From Ectobius pallidus (Eukaryota > Arthropoda > Insecta > Blattodea > Ectobiidae): a DNA stretch of 64,000 bases. The notes below the pieces were generated by a model, which was given only the letters and a program-made list of their open reading frames with translations, ran no database searches and was not told the origin of the DNA. A program made the translations under genes and the position numbers. Location: positions 116,453,938 to 116,517,937 of the forward strand of contig CAXKWD010000004.1 in assembly GCA_964059195.1 (NCBI GenBank), read 5' to 3'. Below, one piece after another: positions 8,892-42,218 of the stretch. Every line of letters starts with the position of its first letter. The first letter of the stretch is position 1.

Positions 8892-9602
8892 TAATTTTTA
8901 TTTTTTATTTTTTGTACGGGCGGTGGTTTCGTACTTAGGGAGGCATGAAACGTAAAATATGAAAGGATTTTTCAAAAATCATGACATGGTATCGATTGCA
9001 ATAGGTAGATTTTCTTCGAAATCTACCTAATAATAAACAGTTACGACGTTATTGTATTCCTATGAATATACACTGAATGTACTACTAAATGGTAGGCATA
9101 TAATTATATAGGATAGACGACACACAGGAATAAGTTTCAATAACTTAGTCATATTATGATTGCATAATGTCACATACTGGACATCTTAAGTAATCTCTTT
9201 CTTCGTAAGGAATGTAAAATATTGAAGTCATCCAAATGTCAGTTATATTTATTTATATCCATTTATATTTAATAATAATAGAATATATTAATCCTATAAC
9301 CTCTCCAACTAAGGGTACCTAATACAACTAACTGAAAAATGTAAATCGTCCATTATAACGTAATGAACAGTATTTGAACGGTCTAACACATCAAACTTTT
9401 AACATGAACTTGAGCAAACGTGTAAATACATACTCGTGCATTTAAACTTGTTTTCCGCTTATTAACGACATCCAAATAAGACACAATGTATTACAGTTTT
9501 ACCATTACTACGTAAATAGCCTATACAGCTGTGGTAAAAATACAAGCATGTGTTCCATAATTTTAAAAAAAACTGAACATATCCGTGTTCTAAACAATTA
9601 TT

Positions 9603-10832
9603 AACAATACGGTTGCACCCTTCCTTCTTGGCTGCAGTCGAGTTCAGTAAGTTTGCTCAACTGCATTTCCAGAGCCTGCGAACGTGGACGCGAAGGATAG
9701 GATTTTCTGTTATTCCTTTTTTAAACTTTAATGTAGTATCCGGTGTTGTATAATTTCCATAAATTTCCGTGAATATCAGGCCGATATGGAATAACAGACA
9801 TTAGGCTCCGTTATCGCTGTTGTGTATTAAACAAAGCAGCGATTCACCCAAGACCAGTTCTCACCTTTCTAATTAAATTTTATCACATGACCAAACCACG
9901 ATATGTACCTCGAATGAGCAAAGCTCGCACTCGGGACAGTTAAGTAAGAATGTAACAACGAATTATATATCATTTTTATGAATTTAGTTTGAGATCTGGT
10001 CTTAGGTCCTATAGAAGTTTTAATTACTTTTTACTTAACAATCTACATTAACGATTTTCATATCATAACACACATTAACGTAGTCAGCATTTCCCTTCTT
10101 CTGCAGTCTTCTGGAGAAAACCTACGCCTGCCTCCTTCAATTTAAATGTGATTTTTAGACCTAACATTATCTTGAATTACGTTATACTTTTGACACTAAA
10201 ATCAACATTATAATCATGATTAGTTCACGCTTACGTAGGAAACACTTTCCTTCATACGTCCGGCATAATGTTCGCATTCTTCCGTCCTATTGTAGATCCC
10301 ACGGCATCTGATGGTCGTCATTCCCATTATTCGTTGTGAATAAGGTCCAGGTAATTTTTTCAGTTTCCTGCGGAAATAAGTCGACCTAAATATTGCTTAC
10401 ACTCTAATGTTAAAGAGGAGCTATTAATTCCCTGGTAAGTTACACAAAATGATATACTTTTCAGATTGTGATATTAATTCAATTCCTAAAAGTAAATAGA
10501 CTGCACTTAAAACCTTTGCTTATGTTAGATCTATGTTGCATATTCACGTACAATATCTTTATGCAGTACCTTTCTCTGAAGTTGTTGAAATCTGTGATCA
10601 CTCCTGAAGATTCCTTTCTCCCTTTGCTGTAAATATCTCAATCCATATTTAGATTTGATCGATAACATACTTAATCCATATTTAGATTTTTTACCTATAA
10701 TTAATTCAAGTATTGAAGTATAATTTCCTTTAATTTTATTCGCAAAGTCGCATTCTGTTTCCCTGGAAACTGTTGTGAAAATATTACGGATTGTTTAGCC
10801 TCGAAAACAATAGGTTTCGCAGAACTAGTCTC
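9603..10832 (+). repeat. Unidentified dispersed repeat, copy 1 (~1.25 kb)
   Basis: It matches 38468-39742 in the same orientation from GCACCCTTCCTTCTTGGCT through TTTCCCTGGAAACTGTTGTG with only small indels and scattered substitutions. Neither copy holds a sizeable ORF, TIR or pol III box that I can see, so the class is unknown. Ends are approximate. Confidence 0.8.
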
Positions 10833-11517
10833 TATATCATCTGTCACTCTGCCCTGTCTCGGAAAATAAGTGAAACAACCTTCACCTAAGCAACAGAAAC
10901 CTCCGGTTTTGTCCGGTCTAGTAAGCAAGTATCTCTGTCTCACTCTTAAGTAAATACGAGTATTACGCTAGTGTGGGACAGACGTATTTTATCGAGCTAC
11001 TGGAATGGTTAACATGCGGAATGCCTTTGATATTTAATACAGGAGATAGCAATGTTCTTTATTTCCTGCCGCGCTAATCAGATTGTTACCTCAGGAATTT
11101 CAACCAATCAGAATCTAAGAATGCATTTTGACAGCTACATGTCAACTCCGCGTGAGTACTTGAGTACACGTGACAACAGCGCATTCTTATCGAGTGACAA
11201 GGCGGCGAAGAACAATAATGAGTCGCATGCCTTTGATGTACCGCATGTTAACGTTCTGAGTGGTTCGATTATACTTGTTTACTTCAGAGCAATCTAAGTG
11301 CAGACAATATCTACCCATTCCACTCTCTAAAACATTAGCGCGCCGACTATAGAGAACGTGTTATGCATTCTATAGCATCATCGGAAGAGTAGGCCTACGC
11401 TGTATGCAGACCTTACCTTGACTGTACAGGTCGAACATAAAACACAACAAATAACTTTAACCAAAATAAACAATAATATTTCGAACGTACTTAATACTCT
11501 ATTAGGGTTAAATTTGA
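10833..11517. other. AT-rich; holds a diverged relative of the 16.1-kb MITE interior
   Basis: Sequence around 11060-11180 (CCAATCAGAATCTAAGAATG, TGACAGCTAC, GTCAACTCC) resembles the interior of the MITE at 16063-16476. The block is flanked by GTTAACATGCGG at 11007 and its complement CCGCATGTTAAC near 11241-11252, possibly diverged TIRs. There is no gene. Confidence 0.45.
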
Positions 11518-13030: not shown

Positions 13031-13602
13031 TGACATAGAGTGACTGCATTTCGGGGGTGCGCATTCAGTTCCCTCTATTCAGAGAATGTATACAAAAATG
13101 TTTGAATTCTTTTTGTTCGTTTCTTAGTACATGCAAGTTAGGTACAAAATGTAGACTTAATCGTTAGTTTTTTTAAATAAAAATCACAAATTAATACATT
13201 TCTTGATTTAAAGTGGTAGTAGAATTTTAAGAAAAGTCGTAATTGGGATTCGCATCATATTCTGGAAGATACAAAAACCTAATGTTAAAGTTAGTTTTAT
13301 AGCCTAAAATTTTACGTTTTTGCGCTATGCTGATCGACAAACACGGACAAGTCCGGATTTTTAGATTCTTATAAGTTAAATTCCATTCGCTTATAGCTAA
13401 ATCACACCCGACTTGTTGGACAGTCGTTGGACTGGTAAAGTATTATGAACCTTTCCGGAGTTGAACCCTGGACACTTGTAGAAAAAAATAAGATTATGTT
13501 CGTATACGCAGAGTATATAGTTTCTTCAACTTTTCTCACTCACAGAGGCGAAGGCCGGATTGAAGTTTGCTAGTCATCTAACCCTAAAATTTAAACATTA
13601 AA
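13031..13602. other. No feature recognised
   Basis: AT-rich sequence between two LINE fragments. No ORF or repeat boundary is supported. Confidence 0.4.
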
Positions 13603-15071
13603 ATGGTTGACAGCTTTTGCTATCTGGGTGTAATACTAGATACAAAGCTAACATTTCGATCACATTTGAATCACATTGCCAACAAAGCCAGTAAACAACT
13701 TCTTAACTTATCTAAGGCGTCCAGACCTAGTTGGGGCTTTAATTACTCCATACTGAAAATTATTTATCGTGGAGCGATTGAGCCTCTGCTTTTATATTGT
13801 GTTGCTGCCTATGAAGAAATTTTACATAAAAAATGGGCTCAGAAAAAATTACAGCAAATACAAAGAGGATTTCTTCTACGAATGATAAGAGGTTATCGTA
13901 CAATTTCTACTGATGCTGCCCAAATTATAGCTGCCATAGAGCCCTTATATTTGAGTGGTCTCTTCTTGGCTAGTATAAATAATATTAAGAGAGGTCGAAA
14001 GATCCCCGATATTGTCTCCCATTTACAACTACAAACACCGGTACATTGGAGTTTACTCGGCCATCCAGCACATTATAACACCAGTTTCATGCAATTGTGT
14101 TCTGAACTTATAGACCAACATTCTTACTACATTTATACAGATGGGTCACGTTACATTAATTGTGAAACTCAAGAAGTTATGGTGGGATGTGCTTTTGTGG
14201 TTTATGATAATAGTGTTTCTGGAATTTATTCTGCTTTGTATAAACTATCGTCACACTGTTCTGTGTTTCAAGCGGAATTGTTCGCCATAAAAGAAGCTGT
14301 TAAATGGTGTATTGATAGTAGCAATAGTGCTTGCATAAACAGTGACTCACAGTCGGCTTTACAAGCCGTAGGATGCACTAGCCACAGACATTAGACATGC
14401 ACTAAATACAAGCACAATTCATATTTGTTTAACCTGGGTCCGAGGTCACATGGGAAATGTAGGAAATGAGAAAGCAGATGAATTAGCTAAGTTAGGTGCC
14501 TCTTTAAATGTTAAAACTTCCTATAGTTTATGCCCTCTATCCTTCATTAAGAAAACATTAAGGGAACGTATGCACAGCCAATGGGATCGGATTTGGCAAG
14601 AAACGAATAACGGCAGCACAACGAAAGATTTGTTTTTCCCAAGAGTGCAAGATAGAATAGCTTGTACACTTTTGATTCCGGATTATATTATGACTCAATT
14701 CTTAACAGGGCATGGGAAATTTGGTGAATACTTACATAGATTTAAAATTTCTACCTCTGCAAATTGTAAATGTAAAGAGGAAAGTCAATCTGTTAGGCAC
14801 CTCTTATTTCATTGTCCATTATTTACGCACGAACGTTATCAGTTAATATTATATTTAAATTTTCTAAATTTTGACTTTACTACACCAATCTGCCGTCTCT
14901 TCTTAAATAAGCAAAGTTACAAAGTTGTTTTAAGTTTCATGAATAGTGTTTTTTGCAAAATTGTAATATGTATATGTAGTTTACTGTATACTCTGTATAT
15001 ATGTTTAATCTATAACCCTAATATGCCATCTGGTAAAATAGGGTTCTGTATTTTTTTGGGGATTCAATAAT
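13603..15071 (+). pseudogene. Non-LTR retrotransposon ORF2 3' part: RT tail, RNase H, zinc knuckle
   Basis: Frame 13603-14394 (263 aa) starts within a reverse transcriptase: the FCYLGVILDTKL motif and downstream thumb are typical of I/Jockey/R1-type LINEs. It is followed by an RNase H domain with YIYTDGSR (Asp), FQAELFAIKEA (Glu) and INSDSQSAL (Asp). A frame break near 14395 separates it from frame 14450-15070, which carries the end of RNase H (VRGHMGN..NEKADELAK) and a terminal CKCK...HLLFHCPLF zinc motif. The 5' half of ORF2 is absent and the break disables the protein. The region ends in a 3' UTR near 15071. It is an old 5'-truncated insertion. RNase H points to an I-like or related clade. 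Confidence 0.85.
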
Positions 15072-18712: not shown

Positions 18713-20481
18713 ATAAGAACCAGTTAATTGTAAGAGTTAATTTATTGCTTGTGATTTTTACTTTTATATTATCTATGATTATACTTTGTATGTTTTTCAA
18801 ATGGTATTGTCCAGTCTTGAATAATTATTTACTTGTTTGTTTTGTTTGTGTGATTGTTTGCTTTTAGTTCTGTTTAGTCTTTGTTTTGTTTGTTTCTTTG
18901 ATTGTTTGTTTCTTAGTTATGGCATATTTTAATTTGTATATTTCATGTATATTTAGCTACTCTAATTGGAACATTGCTCTGATATAGCAAAAAATAACCT
19001 CAATAATTAAATAAATGTGTTTAGGCCTATCTAGAACGGGCTTCCGCCTTCATGGGACATAATGCGTTATTCATTCATGAGTTCATTTATTCATGATAGT
19101 TAAGTGATACTATACTCTTTATAGCTTGCTGTTTAGTTGGTATGTGAGGCTAAATTTGGTAGGTCCATCGGAGATCCTGTAACGGGATGTACGCAGAGGA
19201 TTTCTTTGCCAGGGCACGCCAGTATACACAAGAAAATGGGTAGCTTTAAAATGTACCTCCCAACCCATTACATCTGTAAGGCTTGAACATTGTACTGAGG
19301 GAAGGGAGCACTGAAAATTCAGCGACGGAATGGCATCAATTCTTTTAAAAATAAACATATTGTTTTATTATCTTAGCTTAGAATATCTCCAGGTATATTC
19401 AGTTAATATCTCCCTTTGATGTTTTCATATATAATTGCGGACTAGACAATGATATCAGATAATTGAATTGTCGTTTACCCGGGCACTTCTGCCTTCCCAA
19501 ACCTCCTTATTCTAGTGTCTCGGAAACGTGGGTGGGTAATTTCAGTTTGTGAATGAAGGGAAAGACACGGTATATGACTTCTTGTTGATAACTTTTAGCT
19601 ATCCACTTCGCTAATTGTACCTTCCTAAACAATAAATATCGTACTGATACCGTTGCCGTCATGTATCCAAAACAATTACTCCATGTGTTGTATCCCGAGT
19701 AAGACGGTTGGCGGAGTTGAAAACGTTTTAAAAGCAGATTTTCCTAGGCAAAATGTCAAAATTAAACTCCATGCAATCGGAAGTCTACTCTTCATTCAGG
19801 ATTGATGTTTACGAAGGCAATCTGAAAGCAATTTTGAACAGTAAGTAAGGACCGGGATTCTAGATCCCTCCGTGACTACTAGCTTTCATGAATCTTCCCC
19901 TCGTTTGATCTCAACGTAATAATGTAGTGCAGCCTAAAAAGATATTTGAAATAATACAGATAGATTAAAATTTCAAACCCCTTGGTAACTTTATTTGAGA
20001 AGTTCGTTGTTATAACTAGGGCCGGAAGTTTATGAAATTCATATTATTAATAATGCTCTCTATTACATGCTAGTGTTAAAATGGGTACAAGACATGAAAT
20101 AAATAACAGTAAGTTCTGGTATATAATAATTGTACATATTTATTTAATTTGTCCCATTTTAACTCCATATTTCTGATAGCTTTTAAATACTGTGCATTAA
20201 AACATTTACACCATATTTTTCTAAGTGAATGTTTTAAGAACAGACAAATAATTGACAGTACATATCCTAATGTGACATAATATAATATATAGTATATTAT
20301 TTAAGCAACGTTTCACTTCATTAGTTTTCAATTAACTTAAATTTGTTGCATTGACCTTGTTTTTTAAAAGGTTTGTAATGTAATTAAGACAGCATCTACT
20401 ATTTGTTGTAATTTATAATGAATTCAGCTGACAAGAGAACGTATACTATTATAATTATTTAAATAATAGAGCATACTTCAT
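18713..20481. other. Host flank left of the viral locus, no gene recognised
   Basis: AT-rich. A 79-aa minus-strand frame at 19119-19358 has no recognisable motif. The sequence up to about 20472-20481 is taken as host because PolB similarity starts there. Confidence 0.5.
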
Positions 20482-21306
20482 GATTATGTGCAGGGTAATG
20501 TAAGCAATAGACAGGTCCACAGAGATAACAAGCCCTTGTCCAACACCTATAAGCTAATGAATAATAGTCTCTTCGGCAAGACTGTCGAAAATACCTTCCG
20601 ATATAAGAAATTTGTTGTTAAAAAAGCGACCGAGGCAGGTATGCACGGTCGTCGCAATGCTTTTCTCGCACAGGTAAATAATTTCCTCGAAGTGGACGGG
20701 CATTTTCTGTGCGAACTTAACAATACAAAGGTGCTCCTGAACAAACCGGTACAGATCGGGTTTACCATTTTGGAACTGGCTAAACTAGAGGTGTACCGGT
20801 TTTATTATAGTCTAAAGACCAAATTTGGTGACAAGTTAAATCTGTTGTACCACGATACCGATTCTCTTATTATGCATTTTCACAATTGCGAAACCCACCC
20901 TCTAAAGACAATGGCCTCCGAGCCGGACTTGTTGCGTTACCTTGATTTTGAAAAGGCTCCAGACGATTACGTAATTCGCACCAAAGATACAGATAAAGTG
21001 CCTGGTTTGTGGGCGGACGAAACCGGTCACAGACAGATACTGGAGTTTGTAGGCCTCAGAGCCAAGACTTATGCCCTACGGTTCGATGACGGCGATTCCT
21101 TGATGAAAAACAAAGGAATCACCGAAACCGCAATCGTAGATGCGAGTCGAGGTCGTATAACCTTTGACGACTACAAACGGTGTTTGTTTGAGAACCAATC
21201 GCTGTATGTACAGCAGTATCTTATCCGCTCACAAAACCACACCCTGTATAGCGTTCGCCAACGCAAGTTGGCGCTTGTTTCGGAGGATAGAAAACGGCAA
21301 GTGATG
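20482..21306 (+). pseudogene. PolB fragment (left block)
   Basis: It corresponds to residues of about 763-1037 of the complete polymerase at 24113-27277, including motif B (K..NNSLFG) and motif C (YHDTDS). It lacks the exonuclease domain, motif A and the last 17 residues. The 5' side runs out at about 20482 into host-like sequence. The 3' side stops after the codons for RQVM and joins a 12-bp AT filler and the left TIR. It is uninterrupted within but cannot encode an active enzyme. The reading frame continues by chance into the TIR. Confidence 0.9.
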
Positions 21307-21318
21307 ATACATATATAT

Positions 21319-21442
21319 ATTGTATATCGGCCGGTTTCGCGACCTGTTGGCGTCGTGGGCCCGGCCTGACTTTTTTCGTAAAATCGGCTTGTCGCGAAGG
21401 ACGCTTGGCAATGTTCCCGGATTTGCTCTGTGCTATATAAAC
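21319..21442. repeat. Left terminal inverted repeat of the viral unit (124 bp)
   Basis: It matches the complement of 27312-27435 at about 121 of 124 positions. It starts ATTGTATATCGGCCGG and ends with TATATAAAC. Inside are complementary pairs GGCCGG (21329-21334) with CCGGCC (21361-21366), and TTCGCGAC (21336-21343) with GTCGCGAA (21391-21398), which could fold. Terminal repeats are expected for a genome copied by protein-primed PolB. The exact molecular end cannot be fixed because neither copy's outer flank agrees beyond this point. Confidence 0.9.
21434..21441 (+). promoter_or_regulatory. TATA box in left TIR, driving the rightward genes
   Basis: TATATAAA lies 39 bp upstream of the ATG at 21473, so a start site 25-30 bp downstream would leave a leader of only about ten bases. 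The same box sits in the other two TIR copies. Confidence 0.7.
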
Positions 21443-21472
21443 GAGAAAATTTTCACTTTCCGATACATTGTC

Positions 21473-21919
21473 ATGTCGGCGCTATCAACACCGTCTGCCT
21501 GGCTAGTTCAATCGACGGATACCACCGAATTGCCCACGGAGGACCTCTACATCCTATTGACGGGCATATTCGTATCCGGAAACGCCAAGTTCGAACGTCG
21601 AGACAACGACTCCATTGTTTTACGCCTAACGTACTCCATTAAATTGGAGAATCTTTTGGAGAAGTTTGGGGAGTACCAGGACCTGCTTCGAGTGGTACCC
21701 GTCAGCCCGCACCACTCCGAGGACCAGTCACGACGATTTCTGGAGCTGATCTCCAAACGCAGAGTATATCCCACCAATTCTCCGGAGAGGCATCAACCTG
21801 GCAGCAGTAACACCCAGCACGGTCCCGGAAGCAGTACGGCCTTCGCAGAGGAGGACGTCAGGGGATTTCGTCTCGGCACCCCAAAAAGGTTCAGATCTTT
21901 TAAGTCATTTGATAAATAA
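21473..21919 (+). CDS. Accessory non-structural protein, NS2-position (148 aa)
   Basis: First gene of the rightward block. The frame is open from 21320, but the first ATG downstream of the TATA box is at 21473, so the upstream part is TIR read-through. The product is 148 aa with no domain I recognise. It has a mixed N-terminal half, then a proline/serine/glycine-rich stretch (about residues 95-125) and a basic end (KRFRSFKSF). It overlaps the NS1-like frame, which is open in another frame from 21750. By position it corresponds to the small NS2 protein at the start of bidnavirus VD1; similarity to it is not visible by eye. No HUH nuclease motif is present. An identical-looking copy is at 30137-30583. 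Confidence 0.65.
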   Translation: MSALSTPSAWLVQSTDTTELPTEDLYILLTGIFVSGNAKFERRDNDSIVLRLTYSIKLENLLEKFGEYQDLLRVVPVSPHHSEDQSRRFLELISKRRVYPTNSPERHQPGSSNTQHGPGSSTAFAEEDVRGFRLGTPKRFRSFKSFDK

Positions 21920-22670
21920 ATATAGGGCAACGTCTTACACGGCGTTGCTCGATCGTTGTACACCTGTAGAATGGGATTCTGTTTTAAATAAATACCAGAG
22001 TAACTCTTTGTTGACTAATAATATCAATATCTCCATATCCAGTTACATTAAGCGTAGACTTCAATTAGAAAGAGAAGACAGGTTTGGTTATTTATTAGAT
22101 TGTGCTAAAAATGGGACCAGCCACAGCAGAAATGCAATTAGTGAACTGTTTATTAGAAATCATATTGTTCCTACTCGTTTTGTTAGCGACCTTGAGAAAA
22201 TACTTAATGGTAAGGAAACGAAGATCAATTGCCTCTTCCTCCTCGGACCATCCAATGCAGGAAAGAGTTTTATAGCCCAGTCTATTGCGTCACATTTTGT
22301 GACGGGTTATGCCTCATGTGCAAATAGCATGTCCGAATTCACTTACGAAAATTTCCTAAATAAATCCTTGATATTGTTGGAGGAACCATTTGTAACAGAG
22401 GCGACGTGCGACGATATGAAAAATATTTTGGCTGGAGCCGCTTTACAAGTAGGCAAAAAATACATGAATAAACAGGACCTGTTCCGCACCCCTGTCATAA
22501 TGACCGGCAATCACGAGAAACTAGGTAAAGGATATTTGAGTCCTAGAGACGAGGAAGCACTACGTAATAGACTAATTGTGTATGAACTCCGTGAACCCTT
22601 CACCCCTTCTGTGTATATTACGCCAGAACAGTTTGCTGATTGGGTTTTGTTTATCTACAGGGACATATAA
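21909..22670 (+). CDS. NS1: NS1-like superfamily 3 helicase (253 aa from the non-ATG start shown)
   Basis: Predicted replication helicase. Numbered from 21909, Walker A is GPSNAGKS (113-120), Walker B LILLEEP (154-160), motif C PVIMTGNH (195-202) with sensor Asn 201, and a likely arginine finger lies in RNRL (219-222). This is the parvovirus-type SF3 core. Parvoviral NS1 is far longer and carries an HUH nickase; none is seen here, which fits a genome copied by its own PolB. Start: there is no ATG in frame before Walker A. The frame is open from 21750 and the given start codon is TTG. Expression therefore needs a +1 shift from the upstream gene, splicing or a non-AUG start. It ends in TAA that shares its last A with the capsid ATG at 22670. 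Confidence 0.85.
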   Translation: MINKYRATSYTALLDRCTPVEWDSVLNKYQSNSLLTNNINISISSYIKRRLQLEREDRFGYLLDCAKNGTSHSRNAISELFIRNHIVPTRFVSDLEKILNGKETKINCLFLLGPSNAGKSFIAQSIASHFVTGYASCANSMSEFTYENFLNKSLILLEEPFVTEATCDDMKNILAGAALQVGKKYMNKQDLFRTPVIMTGNHEKLGKGYLSPRDEEALRNRLIVYELREPFTPSVYITPEQFADWVLFIYRDI

Positions 22671-24058
22671 TGTTACGTAGTGGTGGCACCATGTCCCGTA
22701 AGAGGGCGCGGACAATGAGCAACCCCATAGAAACACCACCCCCTACATGGCATTCCGAAGAGGATGAAGAGGACGTCGTGGACAGTCCTCGAGCGATACG
22801 AGCCGTTGCAGGCAGCAGCGGTGGAACGGGAAATTCAGGACAACATGGAATACCACCAGGGGAGAGCGTGTCACCTGTGCCGCGACCTCTACCGTATAAA
22901 CATGTGACATTCACATTTATACAGAGATCGTGGGAGGAAATAGACACTTCCCTAAGTACACTGCCCATCACCATTGCGCTGTACCCCGTGCTGGACGATG
23001 AGATGTTGAAAGTGATAAAACAAGTGCTCCCGTGTTGTCTGGGATATCGTATACACAAACCTCATGTTAAGCTTAGCAATTTCATCATACTTACAGACGA
23101 AATGCAGGTGAGGGCAAACACGCCAACAGAAATGTCTTCCTTTGTACAACAAAGTAAGATCATTCACTACATGCCAAAGAACTTTGTAACTACTGGTTAT
23201 ACGTTATCCAATAAAAATGAGATAGCAGCAATAAAATACGGTGATTTGGTGGGACATAACAGACGAAATCAAATGGTGAAATTGCCTAACACTGACGATT
23301 TCGAAACCGTTAGCATATATGGCATAAGCACTAATATTCACGGTAATCTCGTGAATAGAAATAAAATGTATGAGGGGTATGTTTTAAATGCTCTGGAATC
23401 CCAACATTATGAACTGTTGGCGGCTGCTAACACCGCCGAGGATCTTAAATGGGAGAGTCTATCCTATGCCTACGGCATAGTAGACGAAAAAGGGGATTCT
23501 ACTAAAGTAGAAAGTACCTGGTCTATTGATAAGAGGGCCATATCGAAATGTAGGAATTTGGATAAGATTGAAATTGTGGGTGCCTCCGACGTAATAGAGT
23601 ACGACGTGGAGACCAACATAGAGGGAGATGTCCTGTATCCCGATACCCCGGACGGGTTTACACCCTCTCCTTTTTCGTATTTTATGGTAAAAGGCACAGA
23701 AAAAACCACCAGTCAAACGCTGTGGAAAGTGGGCTTTACGCCATGGCCAAGCACGTTTAATCCTAAAATGTATCGTAAAAACGCCGCATTGGGCGATCAA
23801 TGGCTCCAGGCAAAATACAATCCCATACAACACCATTTTTTCACCATGGTTCCAATACATAAATCTAATGGAACACTGATGAAACAACGGGCATCTTGTA
23901 TGGTGGAACAGAGTTTCCAGGTATCATTTATATTTCGTGATGAGGAAATTTCTGCTATGGCCCCCTTGGAAATGGCGCATATGCGCGCACGGGGATGTTT
24001 GAGGTCAGGAGTTCAGGATTACAATAATGCCAAAACAACACTACCATTTTTAACATAA
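22670..24058 (+). CDS. VP: Capsid-like structural protein (462 aa)
   Basis: Third gene of the rightward block. The open frame begins at 22640 with TTG, but the first ATG is 22670, overlapping the NS1 stop as TAATG; another ATG follows at 22691. From 22670 the product has a basic patch RKRAR (residues 10-14, possible nuclear signal), an acidic run (29-35), a Gly/Ser-rich linker (about 48-60), then a long globular part with beta-rich pattern. A Gly-rich linker before a jelly roll is usual in parvovirus-type capsids, and VP lies here in bidnavirus VD1. No phospholipase A2 motif is seen. The name rests on position and layout more than on recognisable residues. TTTATCTACAG just upstream (22650-22660) looks like a 3' splice site. 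An identical translation is encoded at 27998-29386. Confidence 0.65.
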   Translation: MLRSGGTMSRKRARTMSNPIETPPPTWHSEEDEEDVVDSPRAIRAVAGSSGGTGNSGQHGIPPGESVSPVPRPLPYKHVTFTFIQRSWEEIDTSLSTLPITIALYPVLDDEMLKVIKQVLPCCLGYRIHKPHVKLSNFIILTDEMQVRANTPTEMSSFVQQSKIIHYMPKNFVTTGYTLSNKNEIAAIKYGDLVGHNRRNQMVKLPNTDDFETVSIYGISTNIHGNLVNRNKMYEGYVLNALESQHYELLAAANTAEDLKWESLSYAYGIVDEKGDSTKVESTWSIDKRAISKCRNLDKIEIVGASDVIEYDVETNIEGDVLYPDTPDGFTPSPFSYFMVKGTEKTTSQTLWKVGFTPWPSTFNPKMYRKNAALGDQWLQAKYNPIQHHFFTMVPIHKSNGTLMKQRASCMVEQSFQVSFIFRDEEISAMAPLEMAHMRARGCLRSGVQDYNNAKTTLPFLT

Positions 24059-24075
24059 ATTGTATTTTATTGTGT

Positions 24076-24081
24076 AATAAA
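24076..24081 (+). terminator. Poly(A) signal for the rightward transcript
   Basis: AATAAA 18 bp after the capsid stop codon, in the 54-bp gap between the convergent gene blocks. Confidence 0.75.
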
Positions 24082-24111
24082 GCTTTCATATGTACACAAC
24101 CATGTTTGTTA

Positions 24112-24117
24112 TTTATT
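24112..24117 (-). terminator. Poly(A) signal for PolB transcript, overlapping the stop codon
   Basis: On the minus strand AATAAA overlaps the PolB TAA (24113-24115). Convergent transcripts thus end almost back to back. Confidence 0.6.
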
Positions 24118-27100
24118 TGTACTTCTGTCCTTCGTAACCATGAGGTAATGTTCCGATCCTATCCTCCATCACTTGCCGTTTTCTATCCTCCGAAACAAGC
24201 GCCAACTTGCGTTGGCGAACGCTATACAGGGTGTGGTTTTGTGAGCGGATAAGATACTGCTGTACATACAGCGATTGGTTCTCAAACAAACACCGTTTGT
24301 AGTCGTCAAAGGTTATACGACCTCGACTCGCATCTACGATTGCGGTTTCGGTGATTCCTTTGTTTTTCATCAAGGAATCGCCGTCATCGAACCGTAGGGC
24401 ATAAGTCTTGGCTCTGAGGCCTACAAACTCCAGTATCTGTCTGTGACCGGTTTCGTCCGCCCACAAACCAGGCACTTTATCTGTATCTTTGGTGCGAATT
24501 ACGTAATCGTCTGGAGCCTTTTCAAAATCAAGGTAACGCAACAAGTCCGGCTCGGAGGCCATTGTCTTTAGAGGGTGGGTTTCGCAATTGTGAAAATGCA
24601 TAATAAGAGAATCGGTATCGTGGTACAACAGATTTAACTTGTCACCAAATTTGGTCTTTAGACTATAATAAAACCGGTACACCTCTAGTTTAGCCAGTTC
24701 CAAAATGGTAAACCCGATCTGTACCGGTTTGTTCAGGAGCACCTTTGTATTGTTAAGTTCGCACAGAAAATGCCCGTCCACTTCGAGGAAATTATTTACC
24801 TGTGCGAGAAAAGCATTGCGACGACCGTGCATACCTGCCTCGGTCGCTTTTTTAACAACAAATTTCTTATATCGGAAGGTATTTTCGACAGTCTTGCCGA
24901 AGAGACTATTATTCATTAGCTTATAGGTGTTGGACAAGGGCTTGTTATCTCTGTGGACCTGTCTATTGCTTACATTACCCTGCACATAATCGTGCAGTAT
25001 GGGCGCTTGTTCGAAGATCCACACGTTGTGAACCTTTTCCACTTTCAAGCCCATCTGTATGTAATATTTTAAATTTTCGCTATGCAATAGATACCGATTC
25101 TTTGGTAAAAAGGTCGTACATAATCTGTTATCGTAATGGTGAGGGGCGAGTGGGAACTCGACGTCGCGATCGTGCAGTTCATTGGGATAGGTTATGTCCA
25201 CTAAGGCCAGGAAGCAATGCTTGTCGGTGGGCGACCAGCTTTCGAAGTCTGGAGGTAGGTCAGGTCTGTTGCAAACCAGTTCGCAAGGCAGACTGCCCAG
25301 CATCACTTTCGCATATAATGCATTCACATCGAGATACAATATATGATCTGTCTCGACGTCCTCGACCTTGGCATAACGTCTTATGCACTGAGAAACCCCG
25401 CCCCGGATCTGATTTTGAATTAAAGTGTATAAGAATTTTTCTCTTACGACTTTGAAATTTGTGGGGCTGTGCTTCAGGGCCAGTTGCCAGGTAAATGCCG
25501 GCGCACCCTGGAAATACACGGGATCTGTTCGGTATGCAGAATATGCGTTTTTTCGAAAGAGTTCGAATATGTCTGCCAGCAACAACACGTCCAGCCGAAG
25601 GTAATAGTTATGGTAATCTTCAAATTTAGCAAACCCCTTTTCTTGCCATATCGACATAGCGCGGTTTTTATCTTGCATTGCATCATGTAAATGGGAGTAC
25701 CAAGCATCATCGGTGTTAGGTAGGGGGTGGTTTAATTTAATTTTACTGTCAAACCATTCGTAAGGGAACGGAGCTTTTTCCTTAGCGTCGGATGGTGCGT
25801 ATTTAAAATCCGTAACCGTTGTGGTTAATTGTGCCAGTGAGGAGCTTAGGTAGTTATAAGTATCCAGGAATCGAACCCGGTTCCTCACGTTATCGACGCT
25901 TACAACGTCGAACTTTTCAAAATTTTTACCGGAAATTTTAACGTCGGTACCGAACCGGTGGATTAAATTCCTTATTATGTGATGACTGTCGTAGCCTCGA
26001 AAATTATGAAAATATATTGGGCACGTATTTTCGGGCACCAACCAACATCTTATGTGATATGAGCCGGGACGGCCGTCTATGTAATTTTTCCGACCCGAAA
26101 TGCGTTCGTCCGTCGCGTTCAATTTAACGCCACAGATTCCGCATTTAGGTGTTTCAATGCCAAAAGCGCATGACCAATCGTAAACATAGCCGATTATATC
26201 CTCAATGAAAGCTTCGGCCACGTCGTTACAATCATTAAGCGATTGCAGACCCTCCTTAACTATCTCACCATTGTATACCGCGACCCAACCGTACCCGGAC
26301 GGGATGTGTTGCTGCTGGTCTCGTTCTATGTACGATTCAAAGTCTGCATAACAAACAAGCCCATGCATGCAGTCTGGTTTGGCCCGAGGGCGTACAGTGT
26401 TGTCCTCGTCTGGCCCTATTGATACAACCTCCACTTCGCATTTATTGGGGACATGATACTTAAGACAATGTTCGCAAAAATGCCGGACTTCGCGGGTCCT
26501 ATCATTTAAAAAGGCATCCAATTTTATTATTAATTTGTATTTGCGAATTCCGCAATAATACAGATCTATATATTCCCTGTTACCGGGATCGCACCGTTTT
26601 TGATACAGAACATTACCTCTGTCATTGAAGATGCGAAGATTGAATCTGGCTGCCGTCTTATGCCAGGCCGGTAGCTCGGAGATGTGGACGCGAGCTGCAT
26701 TCTTTTCGTGCGGCGTCGCCTCCCGTCGTAACCATGCACGCACCTTCCTCCGACGCTGGTTGAGGTTGTCCCCGGGTCTTCTGGTATGGTGAAGAGCAAT
26801 GCACCCAATCAGCGTGTCGGAGGTCTTTGTAATTACGACGTCGGTGACGCCGCCGTCTACTTCGTCCACATCCATCACCTCATATTCCGAAGTCAGGACG
26901 TTTCTCGATGTCGGGACCGCAGTATTGTTGGGCTGGCACGGTGCAATCTTGAACCACCACCGGTCAATGCTGATAAATGCCATGCCTGACCCCGCTGCAT
27001 CTGGATATTCGTCGGGGTCGGTAAGCTTTTCGAACACCTCCCCGAAAAAGTCTTGGATTTGAAGTTCGTCAATGTCCAACAGCGTACTGACGGAGACCGG

Positions 27101-27277
27101 AATGTGCAGGAGGATCTCTTCGCCGTCCCTGATGAATAAAGCCGATGTGTGGATTACTAATTTTATAGTTTTTTCAATTTCTAAAAATGCCAAAATAAAG
27201 TTCACTGCATCGTCGTAGGACGTGGTGGTCCAGTAGCCTGCAGCTGGTTGAGTATCTGACCTCAATACGTGAGCCAT
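24113..27277 (-). CDS. PolB: Protein-primed-type family B DNA polymerase (1054 aa)
   Basis: Predicted to replicate the viral DNA. The start is the ATG at 27277, 43 bp downstream of the TATA box in the right TIR. Residues 1-300 are unassigned (a terminal-protein role is possible) and end in a Cys/His cluster, FCEHC...H...C (268-280). The 3'-5' exonuclease has Exo I ADFE (Asp312, Glu314), Exo II HNFRGYD (Asn425, Asp430) and Exo III Y559...D563. Between Exo I and II lies a second cluster, CGICG (379-383) with H408 and C411. Polymerase motifs are A LDVNALY (Asp650), B KLMNNSLFG (786-794) and C YHDTDS (Asp887, Asp889). This is the Polinton/bidnavirus type of PolB (DNA_pol_B_2). The gene is alone on this strand, as in bidnavirus VD1. 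All catalytic residues seen are intact and there is no frameshift. Confidence 0.92.
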   Translation of the reverse strand: MAHVLRSDTQPAAGYWTTTSYDDAVNFILAFLEIEKTIKLVIHTSALFIRDGEEILLHIPVSVSTLLDIDELQIQDFFGEVFEKLTDPDEYPDAAGSGMAFISIDRWWFKIAPCQPNNTAVPTSRNVLTSEYEVMDVDEVDGGVTDVVITKTSDTLIGCIALHHTRRPGDNLNQRRRKVRAWLRREATPHEKNAARVHISELPAWHKTAARFNLRIFNDRGNVLYQKRCDPGNREYIDLYYCGIRKYKLIIKLDAFLNDRTREVRHFCEHCLKYHVPNKCEVEVVSIGPDEDNTVRPRAKPDCMHGLVCYADFESYIERDQQQHIPSGYGWVAVYNGEIVKEGLQSLNDCNDVAEAFIEDIIGYVYDWSCAFGIETPKCGICGVKLNATDERISGRKNYIDGRPGSYHIRCWLVPENTCPIYFHNFRGYDSHHIIRNLIHRFGTDVKISGKNFEKFDVVSVDNVRNRVRFLDTYNYLSSSLAQLTTTVTDFKYAPSDAKEKAPFPYEWFDSKIKLNHPLPNTDDAWYSHLHDAMQDKNRAMSIWQEKGFAKFEDYHNYYLRLDVLLLADIFELFRKNAYSAYRTDPVYFQGAPAFTWQLALKHSPTNFKVVREKFLYTLIQNQIRGGVSQCIRRYAKVEDVETDHILYLDVNALYAKVMLGSLPCELVCNRPDLPPDFESWSPTDKHCFLALVDITYPNELHDRDVEFPLAPHHYDNRLCTTFLPKNRYLLHSENLKYYIQMGLKVEKVHNVWIFEQAPILHDYVQGNVSNRQVHRDNKPLSNTYKLMNNSLFGKTVENTFRYKKFVVKKATEAGMHGRRNAFLAQVNNFLEVDGHFLCELNNTKVLLNKPVQIGFTILELAKLEVYRFYYSLKTKFGDKLNLLYHDTDSLIMHFHNCETHPLKTMASEPDLLRYLDFEKAPDDYVIRTKDTDKVPGLWADETGHRQILEFVGLRAKTYALRFDDGDSLMKNKGITETAIVDASRGRITFDDYKRCLFENQSLYVQQYLIRSQNHTLYSVRQRKLALVSEDRKRQVMEDRIGTLPHGYEGQKYK

Positions 27278-27311
27278 TTTTGCGACTATGCATTTTACAA
27301 CAACTGCATCG

Positions 27312-27435
27312 GTTTATATAGCACAATGCAAATCCGGGAACATTGCCAAGCGTCCTTCGCGACAAGCCGATTTCACGAAAAAAGTCAGGCCGGGCCCACG
27401 ACGCCAACAGGTCGCGAAACCGGCCGATATACAAT
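27312..27435. repeat. Right terminal inverted repeat of the viral unit (124 bp)
   Basis: Complement of the left TIR at 21319-21442 with about three mismatches. Its inner end carries the TATA box for PolB. Outside it, 27436-27455 is a 20-bp ACTTAT-type filler before PolB sequence of the right block begins. Confidence 0.9.
27313..27320 (-). promoter_or_regulatory. TATA box in right TIR, driving PolB
   Basis: TATATAAA on the minus strand, 43 bp before the PolB ATG at 27277. It is the same sequence as in the left TIR, so both gene blocks use TIR-embedded promoters. Confidence 0.7.
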
Positions 27436-27455
27436 ACTTATACTTATACTTATTC
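27436..27455. other. Filler at junction of complete unit and right block
   Basis: Three ACTTAT-like units between the TIR end and PolB sequence. CTTATT also occurs in PolB just before the breakpoint, so the joint shows microhomology. The left junction has a 12-bp AT filler (21307-21318). Confidence 0.6.
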
Positions 27456-27943
27456 TGCATTTTCACAATTGCGAAACCCACCCTCTAAAGACAATGGCCT
27501 CCGAGCCGGACTTGTTGCGTTACCTTGATTTTGAAAAGGCTCCAGACGATTACGTAATTCGCACCAAAGATACAGATAAAGTGCCTGGTTTGTGGGCGGA
27601 CGAAACCGGTCACAGACAGATACTGGAGTTTGTAGGCCTCAGAGCCAAGACTTATGCCCTACGGTTCGATGACGGCGATTCCTTGATGAAAAACAAAGGA
27701 ATCACCGAAACCGCAATCGTAGATGCGAGTCGAGGTCGTATAACCTTTGACGACTACAAACGGTGTTTGTTTGAGAACCAATCGCTGTATGTACAGCAGT
27801 ATCTTATCCGCTCACAAAACCACACCCTGTATAGCGTTCGCCAACGCAAGTTGGCGCTTGTTTCGGAGGATAGAAAACGGCAAGTGATGGAGGATAGGAT
27901 CGGAACATTACCTCATGGTTACGAAGGACAGAAGTACAAATAA
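27456..27943 (+). pseudogene. PolB C-terminal fragment (right block)
   Basis: It encodes the last ~160 residues of the polymerase, starting just after motif C, through the natural stop at 27941-27943. It lacks exonuclease and polymerase motifs A-C and is therefore non-functional alone. The first 434 bp duplicate 20873-21306. The reading frame from 27269 joins unrelated TIR sequence and is not a natural start. Confidence 0.9.
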
Positions 27944-27997
27944 ATAACAAACATGGTTGTGTACATATGAAAGCTTTATTACACAATAAAATACAAT

Positions 27998-29386
27998 TTA
28001 TGTTAAAAATGGTAGTGTTGTTTTGGCATTATTGTAATCCTGAACTCCTGACCTCAAACATCCCCGTGCGCGCATATGCGCCATTTCCAAGGGGGCCATA
28101 GCAGAAATTTCCTCATCACGAAATATAAATGATACCTGGAAACTCTGTTCCACCATACAAGATGCCCGTTGTTTCATCAGTGTTCCATTAGATTTATGTA
28201 TTGGAACCATGGTGAAAAAATGGTGTTGTATGGGATTGTATTTTGCCTGGAGCCATTGATCGCCCAATGCGGCGTTTTTACGATACATTTTAGGATTAAA
28301 CGTGCTTGGCCATGGCGTAAAGCCCACTTTCCACAGCGTTTGACTGGTGGTTTTTTCTGTGCCTTTTACCATAAAATACGAAAAAGGAGAGGGTGTAAAC
28401 CCGTCCGGGGTATCGGGATACAGGACATCTCCCTCTATGTTGGTCTCCACGTCGTACTCTATTACGTCGGAGGCACCCACAATTTCAATCTTATCCAAAT
28501 TCCTACATTTCGATATGGCCCTCTTATCAATAGACCAGGTACTTTCTACTTTAGTAGAATCCCCTTTTTCGTCTACTATGCCGTAGGCATAGGATAGACT
28601 CTCCCATTTAAGATCCTCGGCGGTGTTAGCAGCCGCCAACAGTTCATAATGTTGGGATTCCAGAGCATTTAAAACATACCCCTCATACATTTTATTTCTA
28701 TTCACGAGATTACCGTGAATATTAGTGCTTATGCCATATATGCTAACGGTTTCGAAATCGTCAGTGTTAGGCAATTTCACCATTTGATTTCGTCTGTTAT
28801 GTCCCACCAAATCACCGTATTTTATTGCTGCTATCTCATTTTTATTGGATAACGTATAACCAGTAGTTACAAAGTTCTTTGGCATGTAGTGAATGATCTT
28901 ACTTTGTTGTACAAAGGAAGACATTTCTGTTGGCGTGTTTGCCCTCACCTGCATTTCGTCTGTAAGTATGATGAAATTGCTAAGCTTAACATGAGGTTTG
29001 TGTATACGATATCCCAGACAACACGGGAGCACTTGTTTTATCACTTTCAACATCTCATCGTCCAGCACGGGGTACAGCGCAATGGTGATGGGCAGTGTAC
29101 TTAGGGAAGTGTCTATTTCCTCCCACGATCTCTGTATAAATGTGAATGTCACATGTTTATACGGTAGAGGTCGCGGCACAGGTGACACGCTCTCCCCTGG
29201 TGGTATTCCATGTTGTCCTGAATTTCCCGTTCCACCGCTGCTGCCTGCAACGGCTCGTATCGCTCGAGGACTGTCCACGACGTCCTCTTCATCCTCTTCG
29301 GAATGCCATGTAGGGGGTGGTGTTTCTATGGGGTTGCTCATTGTCCGCGCCCTCTTACGGGACATGGTGCCACCACTACGTAACAT
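27998..29386 (-). CDS. VP: Capsid-like protein, second copy (462 aa)
   Basis: Reverse-orientation copy of 22670-24058 with the same translated sequence. The ATG at 29386 again shares a base with the NS1 stop. The frame is complete and the copy keeps its upstream genes and TIR promoter, so it could still be transcribed. The same caution about capsid assignment applies. Confidence 0.65.
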   Translation of the reverse strand: MLRSGGTMSRKRARTMSNPIETPPPTWHSEEDEEDVVDSPRAIRAVAGSSGGTGNSGQHGIPPGESVSPVPRPLPYKHVTFTFIQRSWEEIDTSLSTLPITIALYPVLDDEMLKVIKQVLPCCLGYRIHKPHVKLSNFIILTDEMQVRANTPTEMSSFVQQSKIIHYMPKNFVTTGYTLSNKNEIAAIKYGDLVGHNRRNQMVKLPNTDDFETVSIYGISTNIHGNLVNRNKMYEGYVLNALESQHYELLAAANTAEDLKWESLSYAYGIVDEKGDSTKVESTWSIDKRAISKCRNLDKIEIVGASDVIEYDVETNIEGDVLYPDTPDGFTPSPFSYFMVKGTEKTTSQTLWKVGFTPWPSTFNPKMYRKNAALGDQWLQAKYNPIQHHFFTMVPIHKSNGTLMKQRASCMVEQSFQVSFIFRDEEISAMAPLEMAHMRARGCLRSGVQDYNNAKTTLPFLT

Positions 29387-30147
29387 TATATGTCCCTGTA
29401 GATAAACAAAACCCAATCAGCAAACTGTTCTGGCGTAATATACACAGAAGGGGTGAAGGGTTCACGGAGTTCATACACAATTAGTCTATTACGTAGTGCT
29501 TCCTCGTCTCTAGGACTCAAATATCCTTTACCTAGTTTCTCGTGATTGCCGGTCATTATGACAGGGGTGCGGAACAGGTCCTGTTTATTCATGTATTTTT
29601 TGCCTACTTGTAAAGCGGCTCCAGCCAAAATATTTTTCATATCGTCGCACGTCGCCTCTGTTACAAATGGTTCCTCCAACAATATCAAGGATTTATTTAG
29701 GAAATTTTCGTAAGTGAATTCGGACATGCTATTTGCACATGAGGCATAACCCGTCACAAAATGTGACGCAATAGACTGGGCTATAAAACTCTTTCCTGCA
29801 TTGGATGGTCCGAGGAGGAAGAGGCAATTGATCTTCGTTTCCTTACCATTAAGTATTTTCTCAAGGTCGCTAACAAAACGAGTAGGAACAATATGATTTC
29901 TAATAAACAGTTCACTAATTGCATTTCTGCTGTGGCTGGTCCCATTTTTAGCACAATCTAATAAATAACCAAACCTGTCTTCTCTTTCTAATTGAAGTCT
30001 ACGCTTAATGTAACTGGATATGGAGATATTGATATTATTAGTCAACAAAGAGTTACTCTGGTATTTATTTAAAACAGAATCCCATTCTACAGGTGTACAA
30101 CGATCGAGCAACGCCGTGTAAGACGTTGCCCTATATTTATTTATCAA
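29386..30147 (-). CDS. NS1: NS1-like SF3 helicase, second copy
   Basis: Reverse-orientation copy of 21909-22670 with identical translation and all SF3 motifs. The absence of an in-frame ATG before Walker A is shared, so it is a property of the virus rather than decay in one copy. Confidence 0.85.
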   Translation of the reverse strand: MINKYRATSYTALLDRCTPVEWDSVLNKYQSNSLLTNNINISISSYIKRRLQLEREDRFGYLLDCAKNGTSHSRNAISELFIRNHIVPTRFVSDLEKILNGKETKINCLFLLGPSNAGKSFIAQSIASHFVTGYASCANSMSEFTYENFLNKSLILLEEPFVTEATCDDMKNILAGAALQVGKKYMNKQDLFRTPVIMTGNHEKLGKGYLSPRDEEALRNRLIVYELREPFTPSVYITPEQFADWVLFIYRDI

Positions 30148-30583
30148 ATGACTTAAAAGATCTGAACCTTTTTGGGGTGCCGAGACGAAATCCCCTGACG
30201 TCCTCCTCTGCGAAGGCCGTACTGCTTCCGGGACCGTGCTGGGTGTTACTGCTGCCAGGTTGATGCCTCTCCGGAGAATTGGTGGGATATACTCTGCGTT
30301 TGGAGATCAGCTCCAGAAATCGTCGTGACTGGTCCTCGGAGTGGTGCGGGCTGACGGGTACCACTCGAAGCAGGTCCTGGTACTCCCCAAACTTCTCCAA
30401 AAGATTCTCCAATTTAATGGAGTACGTTAGGCGTAAAACAATGGAGTCGTTGTCTCGACGTTCGAACTTGGCGTTTCCGGATACGAATATGCCCGTCAAT
30501 AGGATGTAGAGGTCCTCCGTGGGCAATTCGGTGGTATCCGTCGATTGAACTAGCCAGGCAGACGGTGTTGATAGCGCCGACAT
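30137..30583 (-). CDS. Accessory non-structural protein, second copy (148 aa)
   Basis: Reverse-orientation copy of 21473-21919, starting at the ATG at 30583 behind the TATA box of the third TIR (30615-30622). The translation from this ATG is the same as in the first copy. Function is unknown. Confidence 0.65.
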   Translation of the reverse strand: MSALSTPSAWLVQSTDTTELPTEDLYILLTGIFVSGNAKFERRDNDSIVLRLTYSIKLENLLEKFGEYQDLLRVVPVSPHHSEDQSRRFLELISKRRVYPTNSPERHQPGSSNTQHGPGSSTAFAEEDVRGFRLGTPKRFRSFKSFDK

Positions 30584-30613
30584 GACAATGTATCGGAAAG
30601 TGAAAATTTTCTC

Positions 30614-30724
30614 GTTTATATAGCACAGAGCAAATCCGGGAACATTGCCAAGCGTCCTTTGCGACAAGCCGATTTCACGAAAAAAGTCAGGCCGGGCCCA
30701 CGACGCCAACAGGTCGCGAAACCG
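30614..30724. repeat. Third TIR copy, outer tip missing
   Basis: Same as the left TIR read on the minus strand, but it stops at CGAAACCG (30724), lacking about the outermost 13 bp. It forms the right border with host DNA. One substitution (CCTTTGCG for CCTTCGCG) separates it from the other copies. Confidence 0.88.
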
Positions 30725-38007: not shown

Positions 38008-38110
38008 CTCTGGCTTAGCTCAGTTGGTAGAGCAGTGGCACGGATAGCCAAAGGTCCTGGGTTCAAATCCCAGTCTCAAAGGAATTTTTCTCCTATAATT
38101 CACTCTCTTT
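38008..38110 (+). mobile_element. tRNA-like SINE head
   Basis: GGCTTAGCTCAGTTGGTAGAGC (box A region, D arm) and GGTCCTGGGTTCAAATCCCA (T arm, box B) are excellent tRNA-like arms. The acceptor ends do not pair, position 33 is C instead of T, and the sequence continues into the same GGAATTTTTCT body as the neighbouring copy. It is therefore a SINE rather than a functional tRNA. Confidence 0.7.
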
Positions 38111-38467
38111 GTTTTTAAGTGCAAGTGTGCAAGAGTTTCAAAGAGCTGAGAATGGCATAGCCTATGCCGAAATGCATCTCCAGAAAGAATTAGGCCTACC
38201 AATGAAGAAGGACGTCACATTCTTTTAATTTACAAGATCTTTAATTGTACTAATATGTTTCTTTTACGTCATAACTTATCTTACTTTTATTGTGTGAAGT
38301 ACACGATTTGTTTAATACTGACTACACATAATGTATAATAATATAATGTAACATGACGTGTTTAACATCTTATTTATAGGAGGTACTACTTTGTAGAGGG
38401 TGTAAGGTTGCAAATTTCAATACATTAAACATTACTACCCTCTACAGAAATCAAGTTTATAAATAAT

Positions 38468-39742
38468 GTTAACAATATGATTGCACCCTTCCTTCTTGGC
38501 TACAGTTGAGTTCAACTTGTTTAACTGCATTTCCAGAGCCTGCGAACGTGGACGCGAAGGATAGGATTTTCTGTTATTCCTTTTTGCAAGTACCCGGTGT
38601 TGTATAATTTCCATAAATTTCCGTGAATATCAGGTCGTAAGGAATAACAGACATTAGGCTCCGTTATCGCTGTTGTGTATTAAACAAAGCAGCGATTCAC
38701 CAAAGACCAGTTCTCATCTTTTTAATTAAATTTTATCACATGAACAAACCACGATATGTACCCCGAATGAGCAAAGCTCGTACTCGGGACAGTTAAGTAA
38801 GAATGTAACAACGAATTATATATTATTTTTATAATTCCATTAATTTGCCAAAATAGTTGTTAATTACCGTAGTTAATTTTTATGAATTTAGTTTGAGATC
38901 AGGTCTTAGGTCCTATAGAAGTTTTAATTACTTTTTACTTAATAATCTACATTAATGATTTTCATATCAAAACATACATTAACGTAGTCAGCATTTCCCT
39001 TCTTCTGCTGTCTTCTGGAGAAAATCTACGCCTGCCTCCTTCAATTTAAATGTGATTTTTGGACCTAACATTATCTTGAATTACGTTTTACTTTTGACAC
39101 TAAAATTAACATTTTAATCATGATTAGTTCACGCTTACGTAGAAAACACTTTCCTTCTTACGTCCGGTATAATGTTCGCATTCTTCCGTCCTATTGTAGA
39201 TCCCACAGCATCTGATGGTCGTCATTCCCATTTTTCGTTGTGAAGAAGGTCCAGGTAATTTTTCAGTTTCCTGCGGAAATAAGTCGACTTTAAATATTGC
39301 TTACACTCTAATGTTAAAGAGGAGACATTAATTCTGTGGAAAGTTATACGAAATGATATGATTACTTTTCAGATTGTGAAAATCAAGTCAACTAATAAAA
39401 GTAAATAGACTGCATTTAAAACTTTTGATTTACCAAGTCTATGTGACATAATTATTCACGTACAGTGCATTAGTATGCAATACCTTTCCTTGATGGTGTT
39501 TAAGTCTATGATCACCCCCTGAAGATTCCTTACATTCTTTATTTTGAAATATCTCACTCCATATTTAGATTTTTATATGTAATGTATTTAATTCATAATA
39601 TTTTTTTTTGGCGTATGAAATATAATTTCGTTTTATTTTTATTCGCAAAGACGCATTATGTTTCCCTGGAAACTGTTGTGAAAATACAACGGATTGTTGA
39701 GCCCCGCAAAACAGTAGGTTTTGCAGGACTATTCTCTACATA
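38468..39742 (+). repeat. Unidentified dispersed repeat, copy 2
   Basis: Same orientation as copy 1 at 9603-10832, with small indels such as an extra block near 38840-38880. No ORF or terminal repeat is seen. It lies directly outside the right TIR of the 36.2-38.4 kb element. Confidence 0.8.
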
Positions 39743-42050: not shown

Positions 42051-42218
42051 GAGAGACAGTACAGTCTAGTTTCGGGCGGCGCGTTTGACGGGAACATTCG
42101 AGACTTTCGTTCACGCCGATATAAATGTTGCGCCTGCAGGAATTGGAGTCATTCTGAATTGTAACTTGATGGCGATACTACGTCGATAAGTACAAAGTTT
42201 ATTATTAAATAGTGGAAA

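Follow-up and report, generated by a model that had tools for sequence, protein, structure and literature searches.

An integrated, multi-copy bidnavirus-like genome in Ectobius pallidus, probably captured repeatedly by host end-joining

Bidnaviruses are described as a rare instance of a virus family whose parts stem from unrelated groups of viruses (PMC4061559). The layout closest to the one presented here is that given for VD1 of Bombyx mori bidensovirus (BmBDV; PMC6521256), a virus whose genome tips are reported as GTGTGTGT (PMC4061559). The N-terminal extension of the bidnavirid type B DNA polymerase (PolB) is described as containing an inactivated vOTU domain (PMC11071308), and the bidna-like Vesanto virus is reported to have up to 12 segments (PMC8363768). 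The parvovirus-related sequences of a further report are all, by its own account, nearer to parvoviruses than to known bidnaviruses (PMC5013282). Here we analyse a 64,000-nucleotide stretch of the Ectobius pallidus genome (the window; C4:116453938-116517937 of a 2.12-Gb assembly) containing a 6,117-bp element, termed E, whose features are collected in Table 1. We consider it likely that E is the integrated linear genome of a protein-primed, VD1-like bidnavirus-like virus that was captured repeatedly by host end-joining.

Table 1. Features of E, of the pieces adjoining it and of old relatives elsewhere in the assembly. Positions are those of the window unless a locus is named.
Feature	Position	Strand	Details
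Full-length element E	21319..27435	+	6,117 bp
Left terminal inverted repeat (TIR)	21319..21442	+	124 bp, begins ATTGTATATCGGCC...; TATA box 21434 (+)
Right TIR	27312..27435	-	124 bp; TATA box 27320 (-)
(AT)4 tip adjoining left TIR	21311..21318	+	
ORF1	21473..21919	+	148 aa, ATG 21473; position as BmBDV VD1 ORF1/NS2
SF3 helicase (NS1-like) open frame	21750..22670	+	homology 21909-22670
Capsid-like open reading frame	22670..24058	+	ATG 22670; Gly-rich stretch at N-terminus
Convergent 3' ends of capsid-like frame and PolB	24059..24117		AATAAA at 24076 (+), 24117 (-), 24071 (-)
Type B DNA polymerase, protein-primed kind (PolB)	24113..27277	-	1054 aa: N-terminal region, degenerate vOTU-like site, exonuclease, palm
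Inverted partial copy, left of E	20472..21306	-	E 3683 to 2849; 99.76% identical, 2 differences/835
13-bp joint beside right TIR	27436..27448		ATAAGT-type repeats instead of (AT)n
Inverted partial copy, right of E	27449..30724	-	E 3289 to 14; 99.91% identical, 3 differences/3,276
Old capsid relics, ~50-63% protein identity	C9:22.37M, C6:39.60M, C1:31.13M, C1:42.72M, C4:165.63M		capsid protein search

The preliminary description of this DNA had TIRs enclosing an accessory frame, a helicase and a capsid-like frame on one strand and a 1054-aa PolB on the other, and both the coordinates and the Pfam results bear this out. The two TIRs of E are 97.6% identical, with 3 mismatches over 124 bp, and the TATA box in each lies about 40 bp from the first ATG, of ORF1 on the left and of PolB on the right. 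A Pfam scan of the four long proteins of E matched the helicase frame, which is separate from ORF1, to Parvo_NS1 (E-value 1.2e-16) and PolB to DNA_pol_B_2 (PF03175; E-value 1.7e-27), and found no family at an E-value of 1 or below for either the ORF1 protein or the capsid-like protein. Full-length single copies of E are also found at three other loci (C359, C5 and C9). The gene order NS2-NS1(SF3)-VP and PolB, the stand-alone SF3 helicase, the long TIRs, the dinucleotide repeats at the tips, the TATA box near the TIR and the converging ends of VP and PolB are all shared with VD1 as described for BmBDV (PMC6521256, PMC4061559). In contrast to VD1, E is integrated and multi-copy, its tips are (AT)n instead of GTGTGTGT, and its helicase frame lacks an ATG; the kinship of the capsids is putative, the two genomes being likened by described layout and not by direct sequence comparison. 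DNA folding of the TIR as a hairpin (z -0.43) found no special structure.

The placement of PolB points in the same direction as the layout. In a tree of 69 chosen PolB sequences (rooted at the midpoint, with groups named after the two sides of a 121-sequence tree), 39 bidna-like sequences, the window included, are split from 30 Polinton and adintovirus sequences with 100/100 support, and the larger tree divides 74 from 47 sequences with a Shimodaira-Hasegawa-like approximate likelihood ratio (SH-aLRT) of 100, the window again lying on the bidna-like side. PolB did not group with a non-bidnavirus lineage in these trees, whose rows include Vesanto virus and a record named 'bidnaparvovirus' and not BmBDV itself. 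Furthermore, the Cys and His of the vOTU site are kept in 18/18 Polinton and adintovirus sequences and both changed in the window and in 12/12 hand-chosen bidna-like sequences, and the window PolB, with an N-terminal extension carrying a changed vOTU site, fits the bidnavirid description. Together with the gene order, the phylogeny and the changed site uphold the VD1-like identity first suggested for E.

Within the bidna-like side, the window PolB and one unnamed sequence (P0015, 57% identical) form a separate branch in both trees, distinct from the PolB-bearing 'densoviruses' and 'monodnaparvoviruses', with which E is compared by PolB alone. Among the best 120 of 1,068 matches to residues 380-880, the named ones include Phylloscopus inornatus densovirus (46% identical) and False wolf spider monodnaparvovirus (44%), with Fresh Meadows densovirus 3 in the same range (42-46% for the three). 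Many of the unnamed PolB sequences of the monodnaparvovirus/densovirus clade come from 6-7-kb contigs. Vesanto virus lies on the same side of the tree, its PolB being 34% identical to that of the window. A structural model of the PolB N-terminus (predicted local distance difference test score, pLDDT, 86; predicted template modelling score, pTM, 0.57) had densovirus- or parvovirus-named proteins as its top 7 matches in BFVD (best E-value 4.6e-36), followed by an adintovirus protein at 3e-12, with the PolB of Macrobrachium rosenbergii bidensovirus at only 5.4e-4; OTU folds in PDB gave weak matches (E-values 0.16 and 0.40). Scans of viral contigs gave one distant contig for the PolB alignment (L001, 30% identity) and no relative for the helicase or the capsid alignment, and a tblastn search of PolB against phages gave no match.

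Non-element flanks on both sides, copies scattered over many chromosomal sites and old copies in decay show that E is integrated, as first proposed, and the search for further copies in the same genome returned many, both near-identical and older. A 2,001-bp head probe (50 rows, from the best 40 of 60 candidates scored) is covered at 98% identity or more in at least 17 places, two of them within the window. With a 1,701-bp PolB probe (best 40 of 48 candidates scored) we found at least 50 matches, from 100% down to 72% identity. A search with the capsid protein (best 90 of 105 candidates scored) gave at least 78 matches, at least 16 of them full length, and 14 of 16 full-length matches listed have no stop codon, including two in the window. 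The nine other young loci carry mostly open genes: gap-free open pieces number 11/11 for the helicase (full-cover pieces), 10/12 for the capsid and 11/12, 5/7 and 10/10 for PolB, and 7/11 ORF1 pieces are open without gaps, 3 of the other 4 having a 3-base gap.

At the other extreme are old capsid relics of 50-63% protein identity, with a few weaker rows lower, among the matches listed; as far as their sequences tell, these would represent older lineages of this virus group in the same host. The 14 young copies that we compared differ by 0-0.56%. Insect substitution rates are a few 1e-9 per site per year, which would place these copies, roughly, below a million years. Because many near-identical copies and older ones occur in the same genome, it seems that this little-known lineage of viruses has reached the germline repeatedly. 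Relatives are also found in other insects: the helicase matches sequences of Periplaneta americana (81% over 32% of the query) and Diploptera punctata (85% over 23%), and the capsid matches Periplaneta americana (62% over 41%), Diploptera punctata (77% over 42%) and Ischnura elegans (58% over 97%). These relatives lie on long contigs and are unnamed predicted proteins, partly chimeric gene models.

The ratio of non-synonymous to synonymous substitution rates (omega), with the window as reference, is low for the old copies, at 0.17-0.21 for the helicase, 0.15-0.24 for the capsid and 0.08-0.25 for PolB-N. These ranges come from 4/6 rows for the helicase (one of 43 codons only), 4/6 for the capsid, with C3_151 standing apart at 0.60, and 9/9 for PolB-N; rows from pieces holding little or none of the gene (C3_160 and C3_151 for the helicase, C9_86 for the capsid; omega 0.85-0.93) were dropped. 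Synonymous divergence (dS) from the window reaches 0.81, and a copy at dS 0.805 is interrupted, over 548 codons, by 4 stops and by two gaps that break the frame. For ORF1, 15 synonymous and 4 non-synonymous codon changes were counted, summed over parts of 4 other copies. Most of the divergence from the window therefore arose while the genes worked, the capsid-like gene included.

Next, many ends of the copies adjoin an AT tract. We listed 33 ends inside TIRs at 18 loci; deeper truncations do not figure among them, nor do the two joint ends of C1 and the one of C7 that lie inside a TIR. At least two AT units adjoin 19/22 ends that reach base 1 of E and 0/11 ends that start later (Fisher p 1.9e-6). 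Ends sharing a locus are only partly independent, and the C6b inner end was lengthened by eye by 4 bases. The tract also stands at 4/5 intact ends of internal joints (C6a, C6b, C7 and the left joint of the window, not the right one), and because these ends abut other copies, (AT)n most likely belongs to the element tip. Sliding-back is known in protein-primed initiation, and it would leave short repeats of varying length at the termini.

In the window, E is flanked on both sides by inverted partial copies of itself, at spacers of 12 bp (left) and 13 bp (right). The possibility that a 441-bp direct repeat (20866-21306 = 27449-27889) is a target duplication was weighed and set aside; we take the repeat to have arisen incidentally from two separate fragments. 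Ten loci, the window included, were read through and 8 at their ends only, and the latter may conceal further joints. Joined pieces occur at 7/18 loci, and the 8 joints comprise 7 inverted and 1 direct. The joints lack precision: in C1, E6087 meets E6106 across 3 shared bases; in C7, a filler of 20 bp intervenes; and in C6b, E4710 meets E6113. Over E300-3000, the paired copies differ at no position in the window, 5 in C1, 7 in C7 and 14 in C6b. The nearest variants of the C7 tail are the window and C5, and that of the C6b tail is the C7 head, so at least these two arrays join different variants. With mates of different kinds in C7 and C6b, end-joining of several free genomes fits better than the copying of one.

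Accordingly, we propose a mechanism in which the free genome would be copied by its own PolB, the N-terminal domain serving as the protein primer, and priming would slide on short terminal repeats to give variable (AT)n tips. Transcription may start at the TATA box in each TIR, rightwards through ORF1, helicase and capsid and leftwards through PolB, with both transcripts ending convergently near 24.08 kb. No integrase is encoded among the four long genes. Host repair of double-strand breaks would take up free or damaged linear genomes, one at a time or as several molecules linked in a single event, usually in opposite orientation, and the joints would show end loss, short fillers or microhomology. 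Such captures would have been numerous and spread over a long time, and the source lineage, presumably encapsidated, would have kept the tested genes functional between them.

Several observations weigh against this interpretation. The E family is known here from genomic DNA sequence alone. The capsid-like protein has no PDB sequence match worth keeping, and its AlphaFold2 model, from an alignment of 7 sequences, has a mean pLDDT of 34 and is unusable for a fold search. The capsid row of C3_151, a piece that holds part of the capsid and is partly misaligned, has an omega of 0.60 against the window. Omega is also higher among usable pairs of old copies (helicase 0.25-0.30, capsid 0.26-0.53, PolB-N 0.10-0.59), and capsid pairs with C3_151 reach 0.51-0.81; higher values between old copies are expected if each decays after insertion. 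The two large copies of the window are identical over 2,701 bp, a pair that either end-joining or fold-back copying of a single molecule would fit. Regarding the tips, 3/22 intact ends are without (AT)n of two or more units, and the truncated C2c end (E base 3) adjoins a phase-shifted TA run; counting it gives 1/11 and a p value of 3.0e-5. Finally, ATATAT stands on both sides at 4/5 loci whose outer ends were both read as intact (C359, C9, C6a and C13, not C5), and an AT-only target duplication is therefore possible; beyond the AT tract, no target duplication was seen by eye at the five loci.

These flanking repeats, along with the high copy number and the many ages of the copies, would also be expected of a transposon of bidnavirus ancestry, self-synthesising and moving within the genome, that targets (AT)n microsatellites, duplicates some 6 bp of AT sequence only and has no need of virions. 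We regard such a transposon as unlikely: a scan limited to the four long genes matched no integrase or transposase family, the AT tract recurs at intact ends of internal joints, which offer no host target, the tips of C5 (C5:154163209-154169318) bear additional ATTGTAT units in place of an AT tract, and the capsid-like frame, needless in a capsid-free life, is under purifying selection.

The inverted arrays raise the further question of the assembly itself, since near-identical inverted pairs are a known hazard, and episomal viral reads could have been misplaced in chromosomes to create false arrays. An artefact of this kind is very improbable given 18 loci read with differing flanks, decayed old copies and joints that are imprecise and different from one another. 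Multiplication of old endogenous copies by host segmental duplication could explain many near-identical copies, but it is scarcely credible: the 40-45-bp flanks of the loci differ by eye, similarity to E ends at the element ends or tips, and omega against the window stays low, and stops few, up to a dS of 0.8. Polintons and adintoviruses share with E the PolB family, the TIRs and the chromosomal copies, and they are larger and carry other genes. A remnant of one with a chance helicase, for all that it would have PF03175 PolB and TIRs in common with E, is just as implausible, being contradicted by the PolB split, the changed vOTU site, the parvovirus-type helicase and the lack of a Pfam match to an integrase, a Polinton trait, among the four long proteins scanned.

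Our preferred reading of E as a repeatedly captured viral genome has a wider version, which we put forward tentatively and hold to be somewhat short of an even chance. Under this hypothesis, a bidnavirus-like virus is a long-term heritable resident of the germline, existing both as young coding copies, often in inverted arrays, and as a replicating source lineage that encodes no integrase and re-enters through end-joining of linear genomes with protein caps and (AT)n tips. The virus would then be a deep branch, perhaps with a single segment, next to the bidnavirus-like viruses already known. Bidnaviridae of the VD1 type also have a second segment, VD2, with NS3 and P133 and a terminal sequence in common with the first, and carry ssDNA in particles of 20-24 nm. 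Integrated copies of widely differing age within one host would amount to a bidnavirus fossil record; in a literature search by titles and abstract openings, we found no report of multi-copy endogenous bidnavirus-like genomes. The system makes testable how protein-primed linear genomes maintain their ends, how they enter chromosomes without their own integrase, and which genome form, single-segment or split, is the older.

The genes of E had also been called intact, which stands for the four open frames and needs qualification for the helicase, whose frame has no ATG upstream of Walker A. Its homology begins at TTG 21909, and TTG is also present in 17/17 other matches spanning that site, so the helicase start may be non-canonical, or the protein made via splicing or frameshift, with a fusion to ORF1 being possible in the latter cases. 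A -1 frameshift from ORF1, which contains CCCAAAA, was dropped because the helicase is in the +1 frame; splicing and a TTG start are the possible routes that remain. The ORF1 and helicase frames showed no Pfam match at an E-value of 1 or below to an HUH endonuclease family, the domain that in Parvoviridae lies N-terminal to SF3, although a very divergent domain could escape this search.

Elsewhere in the window, a 615-aa hAT-type transposase-like frame lies at 42213-44057 (+), with matches to DUF4371, the Spin-doc zinc finger and the hAT dimerisation domain, some under the Pfam cut-off. At 13588-15067 (+) is a remnant resembling a long interspersed nuclear element, in two frames with weak RNase H and zf-RVT matches. 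An Rfam tRNA match of 36.7 bits at 38009-38081 (+), not called by ARAGORN, is perhaps the head of a short interspersed nuclear element. Finally, a 1.3-kb direct repeat of 84% identity (9588-10837 and 38457-39741) is probably another interspersed element.

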